Positions 2,296 through 12,160 of a stretch of 35,979 nt of DNA are shown here, in pieces. Source of the DNA: Acidimicrobiaceae bacterium (GTDB taxonomy: Bacteria; Actinomycetota; Acidimicrobiia; Acidimicrobiales; Aldehydirespiratoraceae). Numbering within the stretch: the stretch's first letter is position 1; each line of letters starts with the position of its first letter. A program made the position numbers and the translations under genes. The notes under the pieces are model-generated. The model did not search any database. It was not told the origin of the DNA and was given only the letters and a program-made list of their open reading frames with translations. The stretch covers positions 13,529-49,507 of the forward strand of contig NZNH01000080.1 in assembly GCA_002694825.1 (NCBI GenBank), read 5' to 3'.

Positions 2296-3222
2296 GTGAA
2301 CGCCCCCGGTCGTCAGTACGACACCATCTCTTTCCTTTCCGATTTCGGCCACGCCGACGAGTTCGTCGGCGTGGTCCACTCCGTGATCCGTTCGATCGCG
2401 CCGCAGGTCGGTGTCGTCGACGTCACCCACGGCATCGCCAAGTTCGACACACGAGCCGGCGGTCTCGCGCTTGCCCGGGCGGCCAATTACCTCAACCCCG
2501 GCATCGTCATCGCGGTGGTCGACCCCGGCGTCGGTACCGACCGGCGGCCGGTTGCCCTCGAGGTCGGCGACGGCATGTCGGTGCTGATCGGGCCTGACAA
2601 TGGCCTGCTCGCCCCTGCAGTCGGCTTGGTGGGTGGCGCCACCCGCGCGGTTCACCTCACCAACGAGGACTACCAACTGCCACGCTCTGGGGGAGCGACC
2701 TTCGATGGGCGTGACATCTTCGCCCCGGCTGCTGCGCATCTCGCCAACGGCGTGCCCATCACCGAGCTCGGCCCGGAGATCGACCCCGCCACGCTGCTGC
2801 CGGGCGTATTGCCGATCTCGCGCTTCGAGTCGGGCGAACACGGCCAGGAACTCGTGTGCGAGGTCCTGTGGGTCGATCACTACGGCAACTGCCAACTCAA
2901 TGTCGATCCGCTCGAGCTGCTGTCGATCACCGACTCGCCCGGCGGCGAGGTGATGGTCACGATCGGTGCGGGCTCGGCAACGCCCGACGAGCGTGTCGGT
3001 GTTCGGGTCGACGCCTACGACCAGATCCCGGCGGGCCGCATCGGTCTCGTCGTGGATTCCAGCGGTTTGCTGTCGATCGCGGTTGCCCGCGGCTCGGCGG
3101 CGCTCGAACTCGGGCTCGGCGAAGGTATCGAGCTGCGGATCCGTGATCTCGATCCGTCCGACCGCGGTCCCGGCGTCAGCACGCCGGTGCAGCTCGGTCC
3201 CCGCCCCTCTGGAGGATTCTGA
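2296..3222 (+). CDS. SAM hydroxide adenosyltransferase (SAM hydrolase) family protein
   Basis: 308 residues, GTG start. It belongs to the DUF62 family, related to fluorinase and chlorinase, whose members typically hydrolyse S-adenosylmethionine to adenosine and methionine. Visible motifs are ISFLSDFGHADEFVG near the N-terminus, VVDPGVGTDRRPVAL, GPDNGLL, GGATFDGRDIFAPAAAHLANG and WVDHYGNCQLN. The family uses an Asp-Arg-His triad; Asp76 and Arg83 fit, but the residue in the usual TFHGRD motif is Asp137 here (TFDGRD). The enzyme may therefore be altered or use another His. Its stop overlaps the start of the small membrane peptide gene by one base. Family membership is secure; the reaction is inferred. 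Confidence 0.85.
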   Translation: MNAPGRQYDTISFLSDFGHADEFVGVVHSVIRSIAPQVGVVDVTHGIAKFDTRAGGLALARAANYLNPGIVIAVVDPGVGTDRRPVALEVGDGMSVLIGPDNGLLAPAVGLVGGATRAVHLTNEDYQLPRSGGATFDGRDIFAPAAAHLANGVPITELGPEIDPATLLPGVLPISRFESGEHGQELVCEVLWVDHYGNCQLNVDPLELLSITDSPGGEVMVTIGAGSATPDERVGVRVDAYDQIPAGRIGLVVDSSGLLSIAVARGSAALELGLGEGIELRIRDLDPSDRGPGVSTPVQLGPRPSGGF

Positions 3223-3311
3223 TGCGCGCAAGTACCACGCTGGTGATCGGCATCTTGCTGCTCGTCATCCTTGGCGCAGCCGCGTTGCAGTTCGTCTTGC
3301 TGGTCGACTGA
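3222..3311 (+). CDS. 29-residue single-helix membrane peptide
   Basis: A short frame begins with ATG at 3222, overlapping the preceding TGA by one base (TGATG), with a strong Shine-Dalgarno GGAGG at 3211-3215. The product begins MRASTTLVIGILLLVILGAA and ends LQFVLLVD, which is almost entirely one hydrophobic helix. Translational coupling and the good ribosome site make it likely to be real although it is very short. No function can be assigned; comparable tiny membrane proteins often bind larger membrane complexes. Confidence 0.65.
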   Translation: MRASTTLVIGILLLVILGAAALQFVLLVD

Positions 3312-5965: not shown

Positions 5966-6613
5966 ATGGCACCCCTTGGTCGGATCCCCGAAGCCACCGT
6001 GGCTCGACTCCCGCTGTACCTCCGGGGCCTCGACGCGTTCCCCGTCGGGGTGACGGCAACGGTGTCGTCCGACGAACTCGCCGATCTCGCCGGTGTCAAC
6101 GCCGCCAAGGTCCGCAAGGACCTGTCGCACCTCGGCACCTACGGCACCCGCGGCGTCGGCTACGACGCCGCCTTCCTGAGGTTCCAGATCAGCCAGGCGC
6201 TCGGCGTCGCCAACGTCTGGCCCGTGGTCGTGTGCGGCATGGGCAACCTCGGACGGGCGCTTGCCAACCACACCGGTTTCACGGACCGCGGCTTCCCCGT
6301 GGTGGCGGCCACCGATTCAGATCCGGACAAGATCGGCACGGTCGTCGATGGCGTCCCGGTTCACGCGCCCGGCGAACTCGGCGACATCGTCCGCCGCCTC
6401 GGCGTCGCCATCGGCGTGATCTCGACCCCGGCCGAAGCCGCCCAGGGCACCGCTGATGCCCTGGTGGCTGCAGGTGTCACATCGATCATGAGCTTCGCGC
6501 CGACCGTGCTCTCGGCGCCTGACGAGGTCGAGATCAGGTCGGTCGATCTTGCCACCGAACTCCAGATTCTCGGTTTCCATCTGCACCGCGATCGGATTGC
6601 CGGAGACTCCTGA
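5966..6613 (+). CDS. rex: Redox-sensing transcriptional repressor Rex
   Basis: 215 residues, normal for the family. Rex binds operators when NADH is low and is released by NADH, so it derepresses respiratory and fermentative genes. The N-terminal winged helix includes RLPLYLRGL, SSDELADLAGVNAAKVRKDL and LGTYGTRGVGYD. The Rossmann domain starts with VVVCGMGNLGRALANH. The C-terminal end LATELQILGFHLHRD fits the domain-swapped helix of the dimer. In Streptomyces rex precedes hemACD, as here, and a near-consensus operator lies upstream. It is expected to control the hem genes and probably respiratory operons elsewhere. Confidence 0.95.
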   Translation: MAPLGRIPEATVARLPLYLRGLDAFPVGVTATVSSDELADLAGVNAAKVRKDLSHLGTYGTRGVGYDAAFLRFQISQALGVANVWPVVVCGMGNLGRALANHTGFTDRGFPVVAATDSDPDKIGTVVDGVPVHAPGELGDIVRRLGVAIGVISTPAEAAQGTADALVAAGVTSIMSFAPTVLSAPDEVEIRSVDLATELQILGFHLHRDRIAGDS

Positions 6614-6713
6614 CCCCAGCGGTCGGGTTCCTCCGTCCTCGGCGCGGCGAAGCGAGCGAGTATGTCCATCGTGACACTCGTCGCCCGATCCGGTTTCTCG
6701 GGTGGATGTCCGA

Positions 6714-6719
6714 TAGCGT
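6714..6719 (+). promoter_or_regulatory. TANNNT box in the rex-hemA gap
   Basis: TAGCGT lies 57 bp before the hemA start. If used, transcription would begin near 6726 and give hemA a leader of about 50 nt, unlike the leaderless neighbours. The 163-bp rex-hemA gap otherwise shows only a short GACC..GGTC palindrome next to the rex stop and no operator resembling the Rex site. Confidence 0.35.
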
Positions 6720-6776
6720 TCAGTCGTTGGCCCTGTCACCCTGGGCCGTTGGCTTTGCCTCTGGAGTACGTGTTCC

Positions 6777-8039
6777 GTGTCGATCGTCGCCATCGGTTGT
6801 AACCACCGGTCGACCCCGCTCTCGATTCTTGAGCGGATGACGATCGCGCCCGACGACATCCCCAAGGCGCTCGCCGACCTCGGATCCGCCGATCACCTGA
6901 GTGAGGTCGTCGTGTTGTCGACCTGCAACCGGGTCGAGATCTACGCCTACGCCGAGAAGTTCCACGGCGGCTACCAGGACATTCGCGAGTTCTTTGGCCG
7001 GCATGCCGGACTCGCCCCCGAAGACGTCAACGACCACCTCTACGCACTCCACGACACCGAAGCGATCCGCCATCTGTTCTCGGTGACCGCCGGTCTCGAC
7101 TCCGCCGTGATCGGCGAGCACGAGATCCTCGGGCAGGTTCGCACCGCCTGGGAGCGCTCGGCCGAACACGGCATGGTCGGCTCCACGCTCGGCCCACTCT
7201 TCCGTCACGCGGTCGAGACGGGGAAGCGGGCCCGTACCGATACCGCGATCGGTCGCGGCATTGCGTCGGTCAGCCAGGCTGCCGTCGCCCTCGCCACCGA
7301 GCAACTCGGCGGGCTCGACGGTCGCACCGTGTTGGTGCTCGGTGCTGGCGAGATGGCCGAGGGAACCGTCAAGTCGCTCGCTGCGGCCGGCACCTCCGAC
7401 ATCTTCGTCGCCAATCGCACCTGGGACAACGCCGTGGCGCTCGCCGAGGCGTGCGGTGGCACCGCCGTGAATCTCGACGCCGTGGGCGACGCTCTTGTCG
7501 CCGTCGACATGCTCGTCACGACCACGGGTGCGCAGCAGCTCATCCTCGAGAGCGGCGAGATCGCCGGTTTCCTCTCGCGTCGCAATGGTCGCGAACTCGT
7601 GATCGTCGATGTTGCCGTCCCGCGCGACGTCGACCCCCGCGCCAGCGAGCTGCCCGGCGTCACGCTCCTCGACATGGACGACATCGGTGTGTTCGTCGAG
7701 CAGCAAATGGCTTCCCGTACTCGCGTCGTCGGCAACGTCGAGACGATCGTCGGGGAAGAGGTCGATCGCTATCGCACCGTCACCTCCGCCCGCGAGGTGG
7801 CGCCGCTCATCGCCCAGCTCCGCACCCGGGGCAACGACATCGCCGACGTCGAACTCGCCCGGTTCAATGGCAAGCTCTCGGATCTCGATGCGTCCCAGCG
7901 CGAGGCCGTCGAGGCGATGGCTCGGGGCATCGTCAACAAGTTGCTGCACGAGCCCACCATCCGGCTCAAGGACGCCGCCGGTCACGCTCGGGGCGATCGC
8001 CTCGCCGACTCGCTGCGCGATCTGTTCGACCTCGACTGA
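6777..8039 (+). CDS. hemA: Glutamyl-tRNA reductase
   Basis: 420 residues, GTG start. It reduces glutamyl-tRNA with NADPH to glutamate-1-semialdehyde, the committed step of C5-pathway tetrapyrrole synthesis. The N-terminal catalytic domain has GCNHRSTPLSILER and the nucleophile Cys50 in LSTCNRVEIYAYAE, then VTAGLDSAVIGEHEILGQV. The NADPH domain contains VLVLGAGEMAEGTV, and the C-terminal helical dimerisation domain includes EAVEAMARGIVNKLLHEPT. The partner enzyme HemL is encoded about 2.9 kb downstream at 10901. The upstream Rex gene and operator suggest redox control of haem supply. Confidence 0.96.
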   Translation: MSIVAIGCNHRSTPLSILERMTIAPDDIPKALADLGSADHLSEVVVLSTCNRVEIYAYAEKFHGGYQDIREFFGRHAGLAPEDVNDHLYALHDTEAIRHLFSVTAGLDSAVIGEHEILGQVRTAWERSAEHGMVGSTLGPLFRHAVETGKRARTDTAIGRGIASVSQAAVALATEQLGGLDGRTVLVLGAGEMAEGTVKSLAAAGTSDIFVANRTWDNAVALAEACGGTAVNLDAVGDALVAVDMLVTTTGAQQLILESGEIAGFLSRRNGRELVIVDVAVPRDVDPRASELPGVTLLDMDDIGVFVEQQMASRTRVVGNVETIVGEEVDRYRTVTSAREVAPLIAQLRTRGNDIADVELARFNGKLSDLDASQREAVEAMARGIVNKLLHEPTIRLKDAAGHARGDRLADSLRDLFDLD

Positions 8040-8055: not shown

Positions 8056-8946
8056 ATGCAGTTGCGAGCAGCCACGCGAGGGAGTGCGTTGGCGTTGTGG
8101 CAGACGCGTCACGTGGCGTCGCAGCTCGAGTGTGAAGTCGACGAGGTCGTCGTCTCGACCGTCGGCGACCGCAACACCGACGTGCCGATCCACTCGATGG
8201 GTGGCAAGGGCGTGTTCGTCAAAGAGGTTCAGGCCGCTGTGCTCGACGGCCGGGCCGACTTCGCCGTGCACTCCGGGAAGGACCTCCCGGCGGCCACGCC
8301 CGATGGTCTCGTGCTCGTCTGCGTCCCGGCCCGAGCCGACGCACGCGACGCGCTCGTCGGCGCATCCTGGGGGTCGCTGCCTCCCGGTGCGCACATCGCC
8401 ACCGGCTCGGTTCGTCGCCGGGCCCAGTTGGCATGGCATCGACCCGACCTTGTCTTCTCCGAGCTGCGCGGCAACATTCAGACTCGGCTGGAGAAACTCG
8501 AGTCCGGCGGCTTCGACGCGATCGTGATGGCGGCCGCGGCGATCGACCGTCTTGCGCTCGACCTGTCGACCCCGGTCGACCGGCTCCACCCGTCGATCAT
8601 GCTCCCGCAGGTCGCCCAGGGCGCCCTCGCCATCGAGTGCCGTGCGGACGACACCGAGACGATCGCGGTGCTGCGTGCGATCCAACATGCCGACACCCGC
8701 CGTGTCGTCGACACCGAGCGGGCCTTCCTCCACGAACTCGGCGGCGACTGCGATCTCCCCGCCGGTGCCCACGCAACTTTTGGGGACGACGGCATCGAGA
8801 TCACCGGCATGCTGGCGTCGCTTGATGGCCGGGTCCTGATCCGTGAACACCGGGTCGGTGCCGATCCGGATCAGCTCGGTCGGGCAGTCGCCCGCTTCCT
8901 GCTCGACGAACGCGGTGGCCGCGACCTGCTGGCCGATCTCCGCTGA
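8056..8946 (+). CDS. hemC: Porphobilinogen deaminase (hydroxymethylbilane synthase)
   Basis: 296 residues from ATG 8056; GTG 8050 would add two. It condenses four porphobilinogens into hydroxymethylbilane. ATG is preferred since family members begin with a short residue run before LRAATRGSALALWQT. Seen are the IHSMGGKGVFVKEV loop, catalytic Asp76 in VHSGKDLPAATPDG, TGSVRRRAQL, LRGNIQTRLEKL and PQVAQGALAIECR. The dipyrromethane cofactor cysteine is Cys232 in LGGDCDLPAGAHA. It follows hemA by 16 nt and precedes hemD by 10 nt, so hemA-hemC-hemD form an operon. Confidence 0.95.
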   Translation: MQLRAATRGSALALWQTRHVASQLECEVDEVVVSTVGDRNTDVPIHSMGGKGVFVKEVQAAVLDGRADFAVHSGKDLPAATPDGLVLVCVPARADARDALVGASWGSLPPGAHIATGSVRRRAQLAWHRPDLVFSELRGNIQTRLEKLESGGFDAIVMAAAAIDRLALDLSTPVDRLHPSIMLPQVAQGALAIECRADDTETIAVLRAIQHADTRRVVDTERAFLHELGGDCDLPAGAHATFGDDGIEITGMLASLDGRVLIREHRVGADPDQLGRAVARFLLDERGGRDLLADLR

Positions 8947-8956
8947 GCGCGGCACG

Positions 8957-10195
8957 ATGACGGCGATGACTCCGCCGCCCGAACCTGTGGTCGCCGGCCC
9001 GCTCGGCGGGCTCCGCATCGTGGTCACCCGACCTCGCGACCAAGCGGCATCGCTGGTCGATGCGCTGGAGGCGCAGGGTGCCGAAGCGGTATCGGTTCCG
9101 GTCATCGAGATCACCGAGCCGCTCGATGGCGGTGTCGGGCTTCGCACGGCGTTGCGGGTCCTGCGCGACGGCGACTGGGTTGCGGTCACCTCGCCCAACG
9201 GTGCCGCAACGGTGGCCGACGCGCTCGGTGAGCGCCCACTCGCCGATGGCGTTCGGGTCGCAGTGGTCGGTCCCGGAACCCGCGATCGGGCCGAGTCGCT
9301 CGGTCTGCCCGTCGACCTCGTGCCTGCCGATGCGATCGCCGAGGGTCTCGCTGCCGCGTTCCCCGCACCACCGATTACCGGTGGTCGGGTCGTGCTCGCC
9401 CGAGCCGAGGTCGCCCGCGAGACCTTGCCGATCCATCTGCGGATGATGGGCTGGAACGTCGACGAGGTCGTCGCCTACCGCACGGTCTCTGCCGACATCG
9501 ACGACAGCGGTCGTCTCGCCTGCGCTGCGGCAGACGCCGTCGTCTTCACCTCCGGTTCGACGGTCGATTCCCTCGTCAACGCCGTCGGGGTCGACGGACT
9601 CCCGAAGATCGTCGCCTCGATCGGTCCGGCGACCTCTGCCGTCGCTACCGAGCGGGGCGTCGATGTCGACGTCGAAGCCGATCCACACACGATCCCCGGC
9701 CTTATCGACGCCCTCGTCATCCACGTCGCCGACCGTCCCGTGCTGCATCGCGAGCCCGCCGGGAGCGCCGACGCACAGTGGTGTCTCGAGCAGTACTACA
9801 CCGAACTCGACACCCGTTTCGCCCACGGCCTCGATCGGGGCACGGTGCAGTCCACCGACGTCGACGAGATCTCGCCACCGAACGGAGTCTTCGTCGTCGT
9901 CCGTCTCGGCGGTCACCCGGTGGGGTGCGGCGCGCTCAAACGTTCCGACCCTGCGGTGATCGACATCAAACGGATGTGGCTGCGTTCCGACGTACGCGGT
10001 CGGGGCCTCGGCCGTGCGCTGCTCGGCCATCTCATGGACGAGGCCCGGACGCTGGGTGTCGACCGGGTTCGGCTCGATACCAACGAGACGCTCGTCGAGG
10101 CGATCGCGCTCTACGAGTCGTCCGGTTTCGTTGCCGTCGAGCGATTCAACGACGACCCGCACGCCACCCACTTCTTCGAACGAGCACTCGATTGA
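8957..10195 (+). CDS. hemD: Uroporphyrinogen-III synthase fused to a GNAT acetyltransferase domain
   Basis: 412 residues, far longer than the ~250 of HemD alone. Residues about 15-258 are HemD, which cyclises hydroxymethylbilane to uroporphyrinogen III: GGLRIVVTRPRDQAASLVDA, WVAVTSPNGAATVADAL, VAVVGPGTRDRAESLG, VVAYRTVSA and AVVFTSGSTVDSLVNA are family-typical. Residues about 270-412 form a GNAT domain with the acetyl-CoA loop VRGRGLGRALLGHLMDEAR and IALYESSGFVAVERF. The frame runs through the junction with no stop, and no Shine-Dalgarno is apparent before the second domain. The acetylation substrate is unknown. Expected gene hemB is not next to it in this window. Confidence 0.9.
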   Translation: MTAMTPPPEPVVAGPLGGLRIVVTRPRDQAASLVDALEAQGAEAVSVPVIEITEPLDGGVGLRTALRVLRDGDWVAVTSPNGAATVADALGERPLADGVRVAVVGPGTRDRAESLGLPVDLVPADAIAEGLAAAFPAPPITGGRVVLARAEVARETLPIHLRMMGWNVDEVVAYRTVSADIDDSGRLACAAADAVVFTSGSTVDSLVNAVGVDGLPKIVASIGPATSAVATERGVDVDVEADPHTIPGLIDALVIHVADRPVLHREPAGSADAQWCLEQYYTELDTRFAHGLDRGTVQSTDVDEISPPNGVFVVVRLGGHPVGCGALKRSDPAVIDIKRMWLRSDVRGRGLGRALLGHLMDEARTLGVDRVRLDTNETLVEAIALYESSGFVAVERFNDDPHATHFFERALD

Positions 10196-10226
10196 CCCGA
10201 CAGCGTCGCGATCGGAGGCCCACATC

Positions 10227-10874
10227 GTGAACCCGCCTGCCGCCGTCATCTTCGACTTCGACGGCGCCATCGCCGACACCGAGACCCCGGTGTACGAGGC
10301 CGCTCGCATCGCGCACGAGGAGCATGGTCTCGAACTCCCCATGGCGACATGGATCCAGGTCGTCGGCACCGCCGACAACAAGCCGCTGGCCGAGCGACTC
10401 AGGGACGAGCTCGGCCGCCCCCCGGATGCCGACGTGATGGCCCGGGCCGAGGAACGGCACCGCCACGCCCGCGAGAACGTCCCGGTGCTGCCGGGCGTGG
10501 AGGATCTGATCACGGTCGCCAAGTCGCACGACCGCCGGCTTGCGATCGCAAGCAGCTCGCCGATTGACTGGGTCAAGCCGCACCTCACCCGGCTCGGGCT
10601 CGTCGACCACTTCGACCACCTCAGCACGCGTGATCAGGTCGACCGAGGTAAACCCGCCCCTGACCTGTTCCTCCTCGCCGCGGCCCGACTGGGTCTCGAC
10701 CCGGCCGACATCCTCGTCATCGAGGACTCGCGACACGGCTATGCGGCAGCCCGAGCGGCGGGGATGCGCTGTGTGGTCGTCCCCAACACAATCACGGCGC
10801 ACGACGTCCACCCCGACGCCGAGATCGTGCTCGAATCACTCGTCGAGTTCCCCTTCGCTCACTTCGGGTTCTGA
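10227..10874 (+). CDS. HAD-superfamily hydrolase (beta-phosphoglucomutase-like subfamily)
   Basis: 215 residues, GTG start with Shine-Dalgarno GGAGG at 10214-10218. HAD motif I is VIFDFDGAIADTET with the nucleophile and acid/base aspartates; motif II is AIASSS; motif III is the lysine in RGKPAPDLFLLAA; motif IV is ILVIEDSRHGYAAA. The helical cap between motifs I and II, including ATWIQVVGTADNKPLAERL, fits subfamily IA phosphatases and phosphoglucomutase-like enzymes. The substrate is unknown. It sits between hemD and hemL, but nothing in the sequence links it to haem synthesis. Confidence 0.9.
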   Translation: MNPPAAVIFDFDGAIADTETPVYEAARIAHEEHGLELPMATWIQVVGTADNKPLAERLRDELGRPPDADVMARAEERHRHARENVPVLPGVEDLITVAKSHDRRLAIASSSPIDWVKPHLTRLGLVDHFDHLSTRDQVDRGKPAPDLFLLAAARLGLDPADILVIEDSRHGYAAARAAGMRCVVVPNTITAHDVHPDAEIVLESLVEFPFAHFGF

Positions 10875-10888
10875 CCCATCGCGGTGGG

Positions 10889-10894
10889 TAGCCT
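10889..10894 (+). promoter_or_regulatory. TANNNT -10 box for hemL
   Basis: TAGCCT ends 6 nt before GTG 10901, with no Shine-Dalgarno near the start, so hemL probably has its own leaderless promoter in the 26-bp gap after the HAD gene. Confidence 0.5.
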
Positions 10895-10900
10895 CGCCGT

Positions 10901-12160
10901 GTGAGCAACACGAACGCATCCCTGTTCGAACGCGGTCAGGCCGTCATCCCCGGCGGTGTGAACTCGCCGGTGCGGGCCTTCGGCTCGGTCGGCGGGACGC
11001 CGTACTTCGTCGAACGAGCGGACGGTCCATTCGTCTATGACGTCGAGGGTCGCCGTTACATCGACTATGTGCAGAGCTACGGCCCGTCGATCCTCGGCCA
11101 TGCCCATCCCGACATCATCGCGGCGATTCGGGATGCCGCTACCCGCGGCACGAGCTATGGCGCTCCCACCGAGAACGAGGTGCGGATCGCCGAAGAGATG
11201 ACGAGCCGGGTTGAGGGGCTCGAGATGATGCGACTCGTCTCGTCCGGCACCGAAGCGGCGATGTCGGCGATCCGGCTCGCTCGCGGTGCAACCGGCCGCA
11301 GCAAGATCCTGAAGTTCGCCGGTAACTACCACGGCCACACCGACTCCCTGCTCGTCGCCGGCGGTTCGGGGATCGCCCAACAGGGCCTCAAGGGTTCCGA
11401 GGGCGTGACGGCGGGCGCGATCGAGGACACGATCGTGGCGCCGTACAACGTCGTCCCCGAGATCGACGACTCGATCGCCGTGGTCTGTGTCGAACCGATT
11501 GCGGCGAACATGGGGCTGGTGGCCCCTGCGCCGGGCTTCCTCGAGGGCCTTCGCGAAGCCTGCGACGCCGCCGGGGCGATGCTGCTCTTTGATGAAGTCA
11601 TCACGGGTTTTCGTCTGTGTCGCGGCGGCGCAGCCGAGTGGTTCGGTGTGCAGCCCGATGTGTGGTGCTTCGGCAAGGTCATCGGCGGTGGCCTGCCCAT
11701 GGGCGCCTACGGCGCGAGTCGCGAGATCATGAGCAATGTGGCGCCGCTCGGAGGCGTCTATCAGGCCGGCACGCTTTCGGGGAATCCGCTCGCGACGGCT
11801 GCTGGACTGGCGGTCCTCGAGCACCTCACGGTCGAGGCGTACGCCGCTCTCGCCGAACGGGCCGCACGCCTCCAAGAGGGCATGCAGGCGTCGTTCGACG
11901 CCGCCGGTGTCGCCGCCGTGCTCCCGAGGGTCGGCCCGCTGCTGGGCATCTTCTTCACCGACACTGCGCCGCACGATTTCGATTCGGCCAAGGCCGCTGC
12001 CGACAACGGCGTCTACCCACGGTTCTTCCATGGGATGCTCGACCGTGGCATCGCCCTCGCACCAGGTGCCTACGAGGCGATTTTCCCCTCGCTCGCCCAC
12101 GGCGACGAGGAGATCGAAGCCACCATCGCTGCCTGCGCCGAGGTCGCCGCAGCCCTCTGA
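10901..12160 (+). CDS. hemL: Glutamate-1-semialdehyde 2,1-aminomutase
   Basis: 419 residues, GTG start, close to the usual ~430. This PLP enzyme moves the amino group of glutamate-1-semialdehyde to give 5-aminolevulinate, completing the C5 pathway begun by HemA. The sequence opens with the family-typical LFERGQAVIPGGVNSPVRAF. Further motifs are GHAHPDIIAAI, LVSSGTEAAMSAIRLARGAT, NYHGHTDSLLVAGGSG, LLFDEVITGFRL, the PLP-binding Lys259 in CFGKVIGGGLPMGAYG, and QAGTLSGNPLATAAGL. Together with hemA, hemC and hemD, this gives four of the early steps up to uroporphyrinogen III; hemB is outside the window. Confidence 0.96.
   Translation: MSNTNASLFERGQAVIPGGVNSPVRAFGSVGGTPYFVERADGPFVYDVEGRRYIDYVQSYGPSILGHAHPDIIAAIRDAATRGTSYGAPTENEVRIAEEMTSRVEGLEMMRLVSSGTEAAMSAIRLARGATGRSKILKFAGNYHGHTDSLLVAGGSGIAQQGLKGSEGVTAGAIEDTIVAPYNVVPEIDDSIAVVCVEPIAANMGLVAPAPGFLEGLREACDAAGAMLLFDEVITGFRLCRGGAAEWFGVQPDVWCFGKVIGGGLPMGAYGASREIMSNVAPLGGVYQAGTLSGNPLATAAGLAVLEHLTVEAYAALAERAARLQEGMQASFDAAGVAAVLPRVGPLLGIFFTDTAPHDFDSAKAAADNGVYPRFFHGMLDRGIALAPGAYEAIFPSLAHGDEEIEATIAACAEVAAAL

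Follow-up and report, generated by a model that had tools for sequence, protein, structure and literature searches.

A uroporphyrinogen-III synthase fused to a GNAT acetyltransferase domain in one family of Acidimicrobiales

The uroporphyrinogen-III synthase (HemD) encoded in the haem gene cluster of an Acidimicrobiaceae bacterium is joined, in one uninterrupted reading frame, to a C-terminal GNAT acetyltransferase domain. The fusion, found here in a stretch of 35,979 nucleotides (the window), is shared with other genomes of the same family and arose once, and its acetyltransferase half is conserved in most of the genomes that carry it and has decayed or disappeared in others.

The fusion gene

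The fusion gene occupies positions 8957–10195 of the forward strand and, in the frame listing of the window, runs from an ATG at 8957 to a TGA at 10195 with no internal stop, encoding 412 residues. The preceding gene, hemC, ends at 8946 and hence 8957, which lies 10 bp further on, is a sensible start, whereas a longer frame, beginning with a GTG at 8843, overlaps hemC. An open frame of 608 aa also crosses the fusion gene on the opposite strand (window positions 8801–10627), probably as a by-product of the high GC content, and the openness of the fusion frame is therefore, by itself, little proof of coding. However, the uninterrupted HemD-GNAT frame recurs in other genomes at 53–96 % identity with dN/dS well below 1 in both halves, and it is on this basis that we regard it as one coding gene. 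Production of two proteins via an internal start was rejected as the in-frame GTG at the junction (residue 262) is not common to all members; it is present in the window's group within its genus (g1), in G008 and in genus g7, but genus g8 has another codon there and G003 has no start codon of any kind at this position. A scan of positions 8900–10950 for the sigma-70 consensus only found no promoter-like site.

The HemD half (residues 1–258, positions 8957–9730, forward strand) matches HEM4 (PF02602) at residues 33–250, covering profile positions 3–230 of 231 (153 bits, cut-off 27.5; E 8.3e-45). The window protein misses the NCBIfam HemD equivalog cut-off (best 91.3 bits versus 246), but these models appear to be narrow and lineage-specific, and the shortfall lowers the equivalog label only. 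The GNAT half (residues 259–412, positions 9731–10195, forward strand) matches Acetyltransf_1 (PF00583) at residues 304–391 with 60.9 bits against a cut-off of 20.7 (E 1.8e-16), and includes the acetyl-CoA motif RGRGLG at residues 347–352 (positions about 9995–10012, forward strand), which fits the pattern (R/Q)xxGx(G/A). The first-pass annotation, made from the letters of the window, had described HemD and a complete GNAT domain with the acetyl-CoA loop VRGRGLGRALL in one uninterrupted frame, and this description holds in every part: the frame from 8957 to 10195 contains both Pfam domains and is found in other genomes, the GNAT match exceeds its cut-off, and the loop is present in the second half.

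The window comes from a fragmented assembly that is 89 % complete, and two separate genes might have been joined there by an error of assembly or sequencing. We give this explanation practically no credence as 16 genomes have the uninterrupted frame, among them the single-contig 4.48-Mb assembly of G015, and comparison with other assemblies contradicted a stop or frameshift near 9740–9770, where the frame is uninterrupted. The independent assemblies refute an artefact, and the HemD-GNAT fusion is real and heritable.

Gene neighbourhood and the HemD copy

The gene order around the fusion is Rex-like regulator, hemA, hemC, hemD-GNAT, HAD hydrolase, hemL and a YceI-like gene. On the forward strand, hemA (glutamyl-tRNA reductase; 6777–8039; Pfam GlutR_N and GlutR_dimer) lies in the same operon and is followed by hemC (porphobilinogen deaminase; 8056–8946; Porphobil_deam, E 1.7e-71). 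Downstream, also on the forward strand, are a HAD-family hydrolase gene (10227–10874; HAD_2) and a hemL-type class-III aminotransferase gene (glutamate-1-semialdehyde aminomutase; 10901–12160; Aminotran_3), the latter conserved in position and sequence among relatives. Relatives carry hemB in the interval that separates the HAD gene from hemL (2330–3310, reverse strand, in L078; 7823–8803, forward strand, in L082), and there is no hemB between these two genes in the window (10874–10901). The hemB gene is located on a different contig in G001, G004 and G006, and was not found in the assemblies of G000 and G002, which may reflect gaps in incomplete genomes. In G005, the HAD gene and hemB are separated by a gene that, as read by eye, resembles M20-family hydrolases (6532–7755, forward strand, in L082); the window does not include this gene.

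The window genome contains a single HEM4 gene, set in the haem operon with hemA and hemC upstream and hemL downstream. When 51 genomes of the family were searched for HEM4, nearly all had one gene each; departures from this were due to genes that the assemblies had split or cut, and to G034, which had none. As the only HEM4 gene in its genome, the fused HemD should have to serve haem synthesis.

Distribution across genomes

A survey covering 61 genomes from genus to order level located the full-length fusion in g1 and in g7 and g8, which belong to the same family. Together with a further g8 genome (G429, locus L066), both domains are found in one frame in 16 genomes from three genera. In G031 and G428 the gene is cut by a contig end, yet the GNAT domain is joined directly to the tail of HemD. 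The near relatives that bear names are metagenome assemblies assigned to Acidimicrobiaceae or Acidimicrobiales, one of them labelled Candidatus Microthrix. The family with the fusion belongs to the Acidimicrobiales (Actinomycetota), and some of the genomes are marine.

In 397 sampled genomes of the order, full-length matches were confined to the family, among the matches listed, and when the GNAT half was used to search 396 genomes of the phylum, the relatives found outside the family had no adjacent HemD. Over these approximately 800 other Acidimicrobiales/Actinomycetota genomes, the fusion was not found outside the family among the matches listed, in searches that would miss HemD joined to a different GNAT subfamily. 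As far as sampled, these sequences indicate that the fusion is restricted to one family. Among plasmids, no protein was found that covers 80 % of the query. The first-pass annotation had suggested looking for hemD and GNAT as separate adjacent genes in relatives, but no such pair was seen, and the relatives contain the fusion, a remnant or nothing.

Origin of the GNAT half

Outside the family, the GNAT half is best matched by the C-terminal half of MarR-GNAT proteins (38–51 % identical), which are annotated as helix-turn-helix GNAT proteins. The same subfamily is also found stand-alone and behind DUF4031 (an example is locus L076, G041:C47:181000-184500), and since it lies behind both MarR and DUF4031 domains it appears to be promiscuous in its choice of partner. 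A tree built from 43 GNAT sequences places the 15 fused ones in a single clade (support 100/100), apart from the MarR-linked, stand-alone and DUF4031-linked relatives. Hence, the fusion arose once. Within the GNAT tree, G003 and G007 are placed away from the other g1 members, probably due to fast change. Transfer of the complete fusion gene from one genus to another was considered and rejected, as the HemD tree does not group the fused HemD of g8 with those of g1 and g7. The HemC tree is poorly resolved, with genus g2, which may have lost the GNAT half or may never have gained it, falling outside the others.

Loss and decay of the GNAT half

In the sister genera g9 and g10, a plain hemD ends and the HAD gene is directly next (for g9, seen in synteny as well). 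Further cases, which are recent, were found among the genera with the fusion. In G005 (g1), a stop codon at the junction is followed by a GNAT remnant extending to approximately residue 71 of the 154-residue half, and the HAD gene comes after the remnant. In G026 (g7), the first junction residues, VIHTED, are kept, after which the sequence diverges and ends. The frame remains open in G003 and G007, but only 23–24 of the 44 subfamily-conserved GNAT positions are kept; between these two the GNAT halves are 51 % identical and the HemD halves 78 %, with dN/dS of 0.378 and 0.128, respectively. The number of losses is uncertain because g2 branches at different points in the trees of HemD and HemC. 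That the GNAT half has repeatedly been lost or is decaying while HemD stays intact suggests that HemD is independent of it and, judging from these genomes, haem synthesis does not need the GNAT half.

Conservation and predicted structure of the GNAT half

The GNAT half of the window protein keeps 38 of the 44 subfamily-conserved positions, RGRGLG included, and all residues of the acetyl-CoA motif are intact across the window group. Outside G003 and G007, the other fused proteins keep 31–38 of the 44, and unfused relatives 34–44. For the g7 pair, the GNAT dN/dS is 0.075 and the GNAT halves are 90 % identical compared with 68 % for HemD; the values range from 0.087 to 0.26 in g8 and, from small counts, from 0.16 to 0.34 in the window's close group. 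In sequence terms, the GNAT half is thus under purifying selection in most members.

When modelled alone, the GNAT domain was predicted to adopt a GNAT fold (pLDDT 83.9), and the best match of this model in the PDB was 3lod (TM-score 0.74 by query length), followed by 3d8p and then the protein acetyltransferase HP0935. The nearest solved structures by sequence, an IAA acetyltransferase from B. cereus and YsnE from B. subtilis, are too distant to fix a substrate. The model of the full-length protein is of low confidence (mean pLDDT 64.7), too weak to judge contact between the halves. Because its sites are conserved, its dN/dS is low and its modelled fold matches solved GNATs, the GNAT half is likely to be catalytically active, though it could be inactive despite the acetyl-CoA motif.

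Comparison with known HemD and GNAT proteins

Like plain HemD proteins, the window protein has a full-length HEM4 domain, is encoded directly after hemC and is the only genomic copy, but plain HemD lacks the C-terminal GNAT domain. The first-pass annotation had named methyltransferase and DNA-binding domains as the known partners of HemD, and the literature consulted bears this out, with CobA-HemD and NnaR as examples; NCBIfam additionally includes a HemD-HemX model. In the bifunctional CobA-HemD fusion (PMC11237513), HemD is also joined to another catalytic domain, but there the partner, a methyltransferase, sits at the N-terminus and belongs to the pathway of HemD itself, whereas the GNAT partner is C-terminal and has no known link to the pathway. 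The window protein does not include an N-terminal methyltransferase, as HemD begins near residue 15 with no domain upstream. In the examples examined from other families of the order, a CobA-like methyltransferase precedes HemD in-frame (L041, L046 and L052, as read from sequence), and the window's family appears either to have lost this partner or never to have had it.

NnaR, a regulator combining HemD with an OmpR-type DNA-binding domain, is likewise an actinobacterial HemD with an extra C-terminal domain; however, its HemD domain is reported to be inactive in S. coelicolor (PMC11162112), whereas the fused HemD described here is the sole copy and its partner is a GNAT. A Pfam scan found no DNA-binding domain in the window protein. 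The homologous GNAT halves of the MarR-GNAT proteins share the motifs RGxGxGR, LDTN and FNDxP with the window protein, but their N-terminus is a MarR winged helix and that of the window protein contains, by Pfam, HEM4 only. No description of a HemD-GNAT architecture was found in the literature searched.

Discussion

In our judgement, the fusion probably, though by no means certainly, encodes a two-function protein made up of the sole HemD and a dispensable, working GNAT expressed from the haem operon. The HemD half would close hydroxymethylbilane into uroporphyrinogen III and the GNAT half would use acetyl-CoA, its most likely target being a small amine or an N-terminus with no relation to tetrapyrroles. 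A GNAT of the promiscuous subfamily usually joined to MarR would have been added to the 3′ end of hemD on a single occasion, in an ancestor of these genera, and the fusion would place the acetyltransferase under haem-operon expression, at a steady level and in fixed ratio to HemD. Some lineages may benefit from it and others may do without it.

The losses could also be taken to mean that the GNAT half is carried along neutrally and is heading for loss everywhere, as the stop and truncation in G005, the loss in G026, the decay in G003 and G007 and the absence from g9 and g10 would suggest. We think this unlikely since the GNAT half is better conserved than HemD in g7, has dN/dS down to 0.087 in g8, and retains every acetyl-CoA-motif residue in the window group. 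Purifying selection on the GNAT half in most members, together with its physical attachment to HemD within a hemA-hemC-hemD-hemL cluster, could instead point to a GNAT that acts within haem synthesis, acetylating an enzyme of the pathway or an intermediate that bears an amine (for example glutamate-1-semialdehyde, 5-aminolevulinate or porphobilinogen) and so controlling or detoxifying flux. This too seems quite unlikely to us, given that close relatives with the same operon have lost the GNAT half, or have it in decay, and kept HemD, and that the GNAT subfamily is usually joined to unrelated partners. Furthermore, hydroxymethylbilane, HemD's own substrate, carries no amine, and direct action of the GNAT on it is therefore unlikely. 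Stronger still, and very doubtful, is the proposal of a dedicated acetyltransferase of tetrapyrrole synthesis through which acetyl-CoA supply controls haem production via a pathway enzyme or amine intermediate. Nevertheless, most members in the three genera have retained the GNAT half as a fusion and have no separate copy of it, which could be a sign that its link to haem synthesis matters. Between the two readings that the first-pass annotation had put forward, the fusion of an unrelated neighbouring domain agrees best with the evidence, given the mobility of the partner and the losses, while acetylation in the haem pathway has only the physical link in its favour and is weakened by those losses.

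A non-catalytic role, with the GNAT half sensing acetyl-CoA or another ligand and regulating or stabilising HemD, has a precedent in NnaR, in which HemD is coupled to an output domain with a regulatory role (PMC11162112), and would agree with the conserved acetyl-CoA loop. Yet the kept sites span the pattern of the whole GNAT subfamily, beyond that loop, and HemD works without a GNAT half in sister genera and apparently also in G005 and G026, making such a sensor improbable in our view.

The two-function protein that we favour adds GNAT to the partners of HemD, one absent from the literature searched, the combination being new and the parts known. For these genomes, it also carries a warning for annotation, as the name HemD conceals an acetyltransferase. 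In addition, close genomes provide a natural series in which the acetyltransferase half is intact, decaying, truncated or absent on the same essential enzyme, and this series allows a direct test of whether the two halves are functionally linked or whether hemD is merely a site that offers a domain reliable expression.
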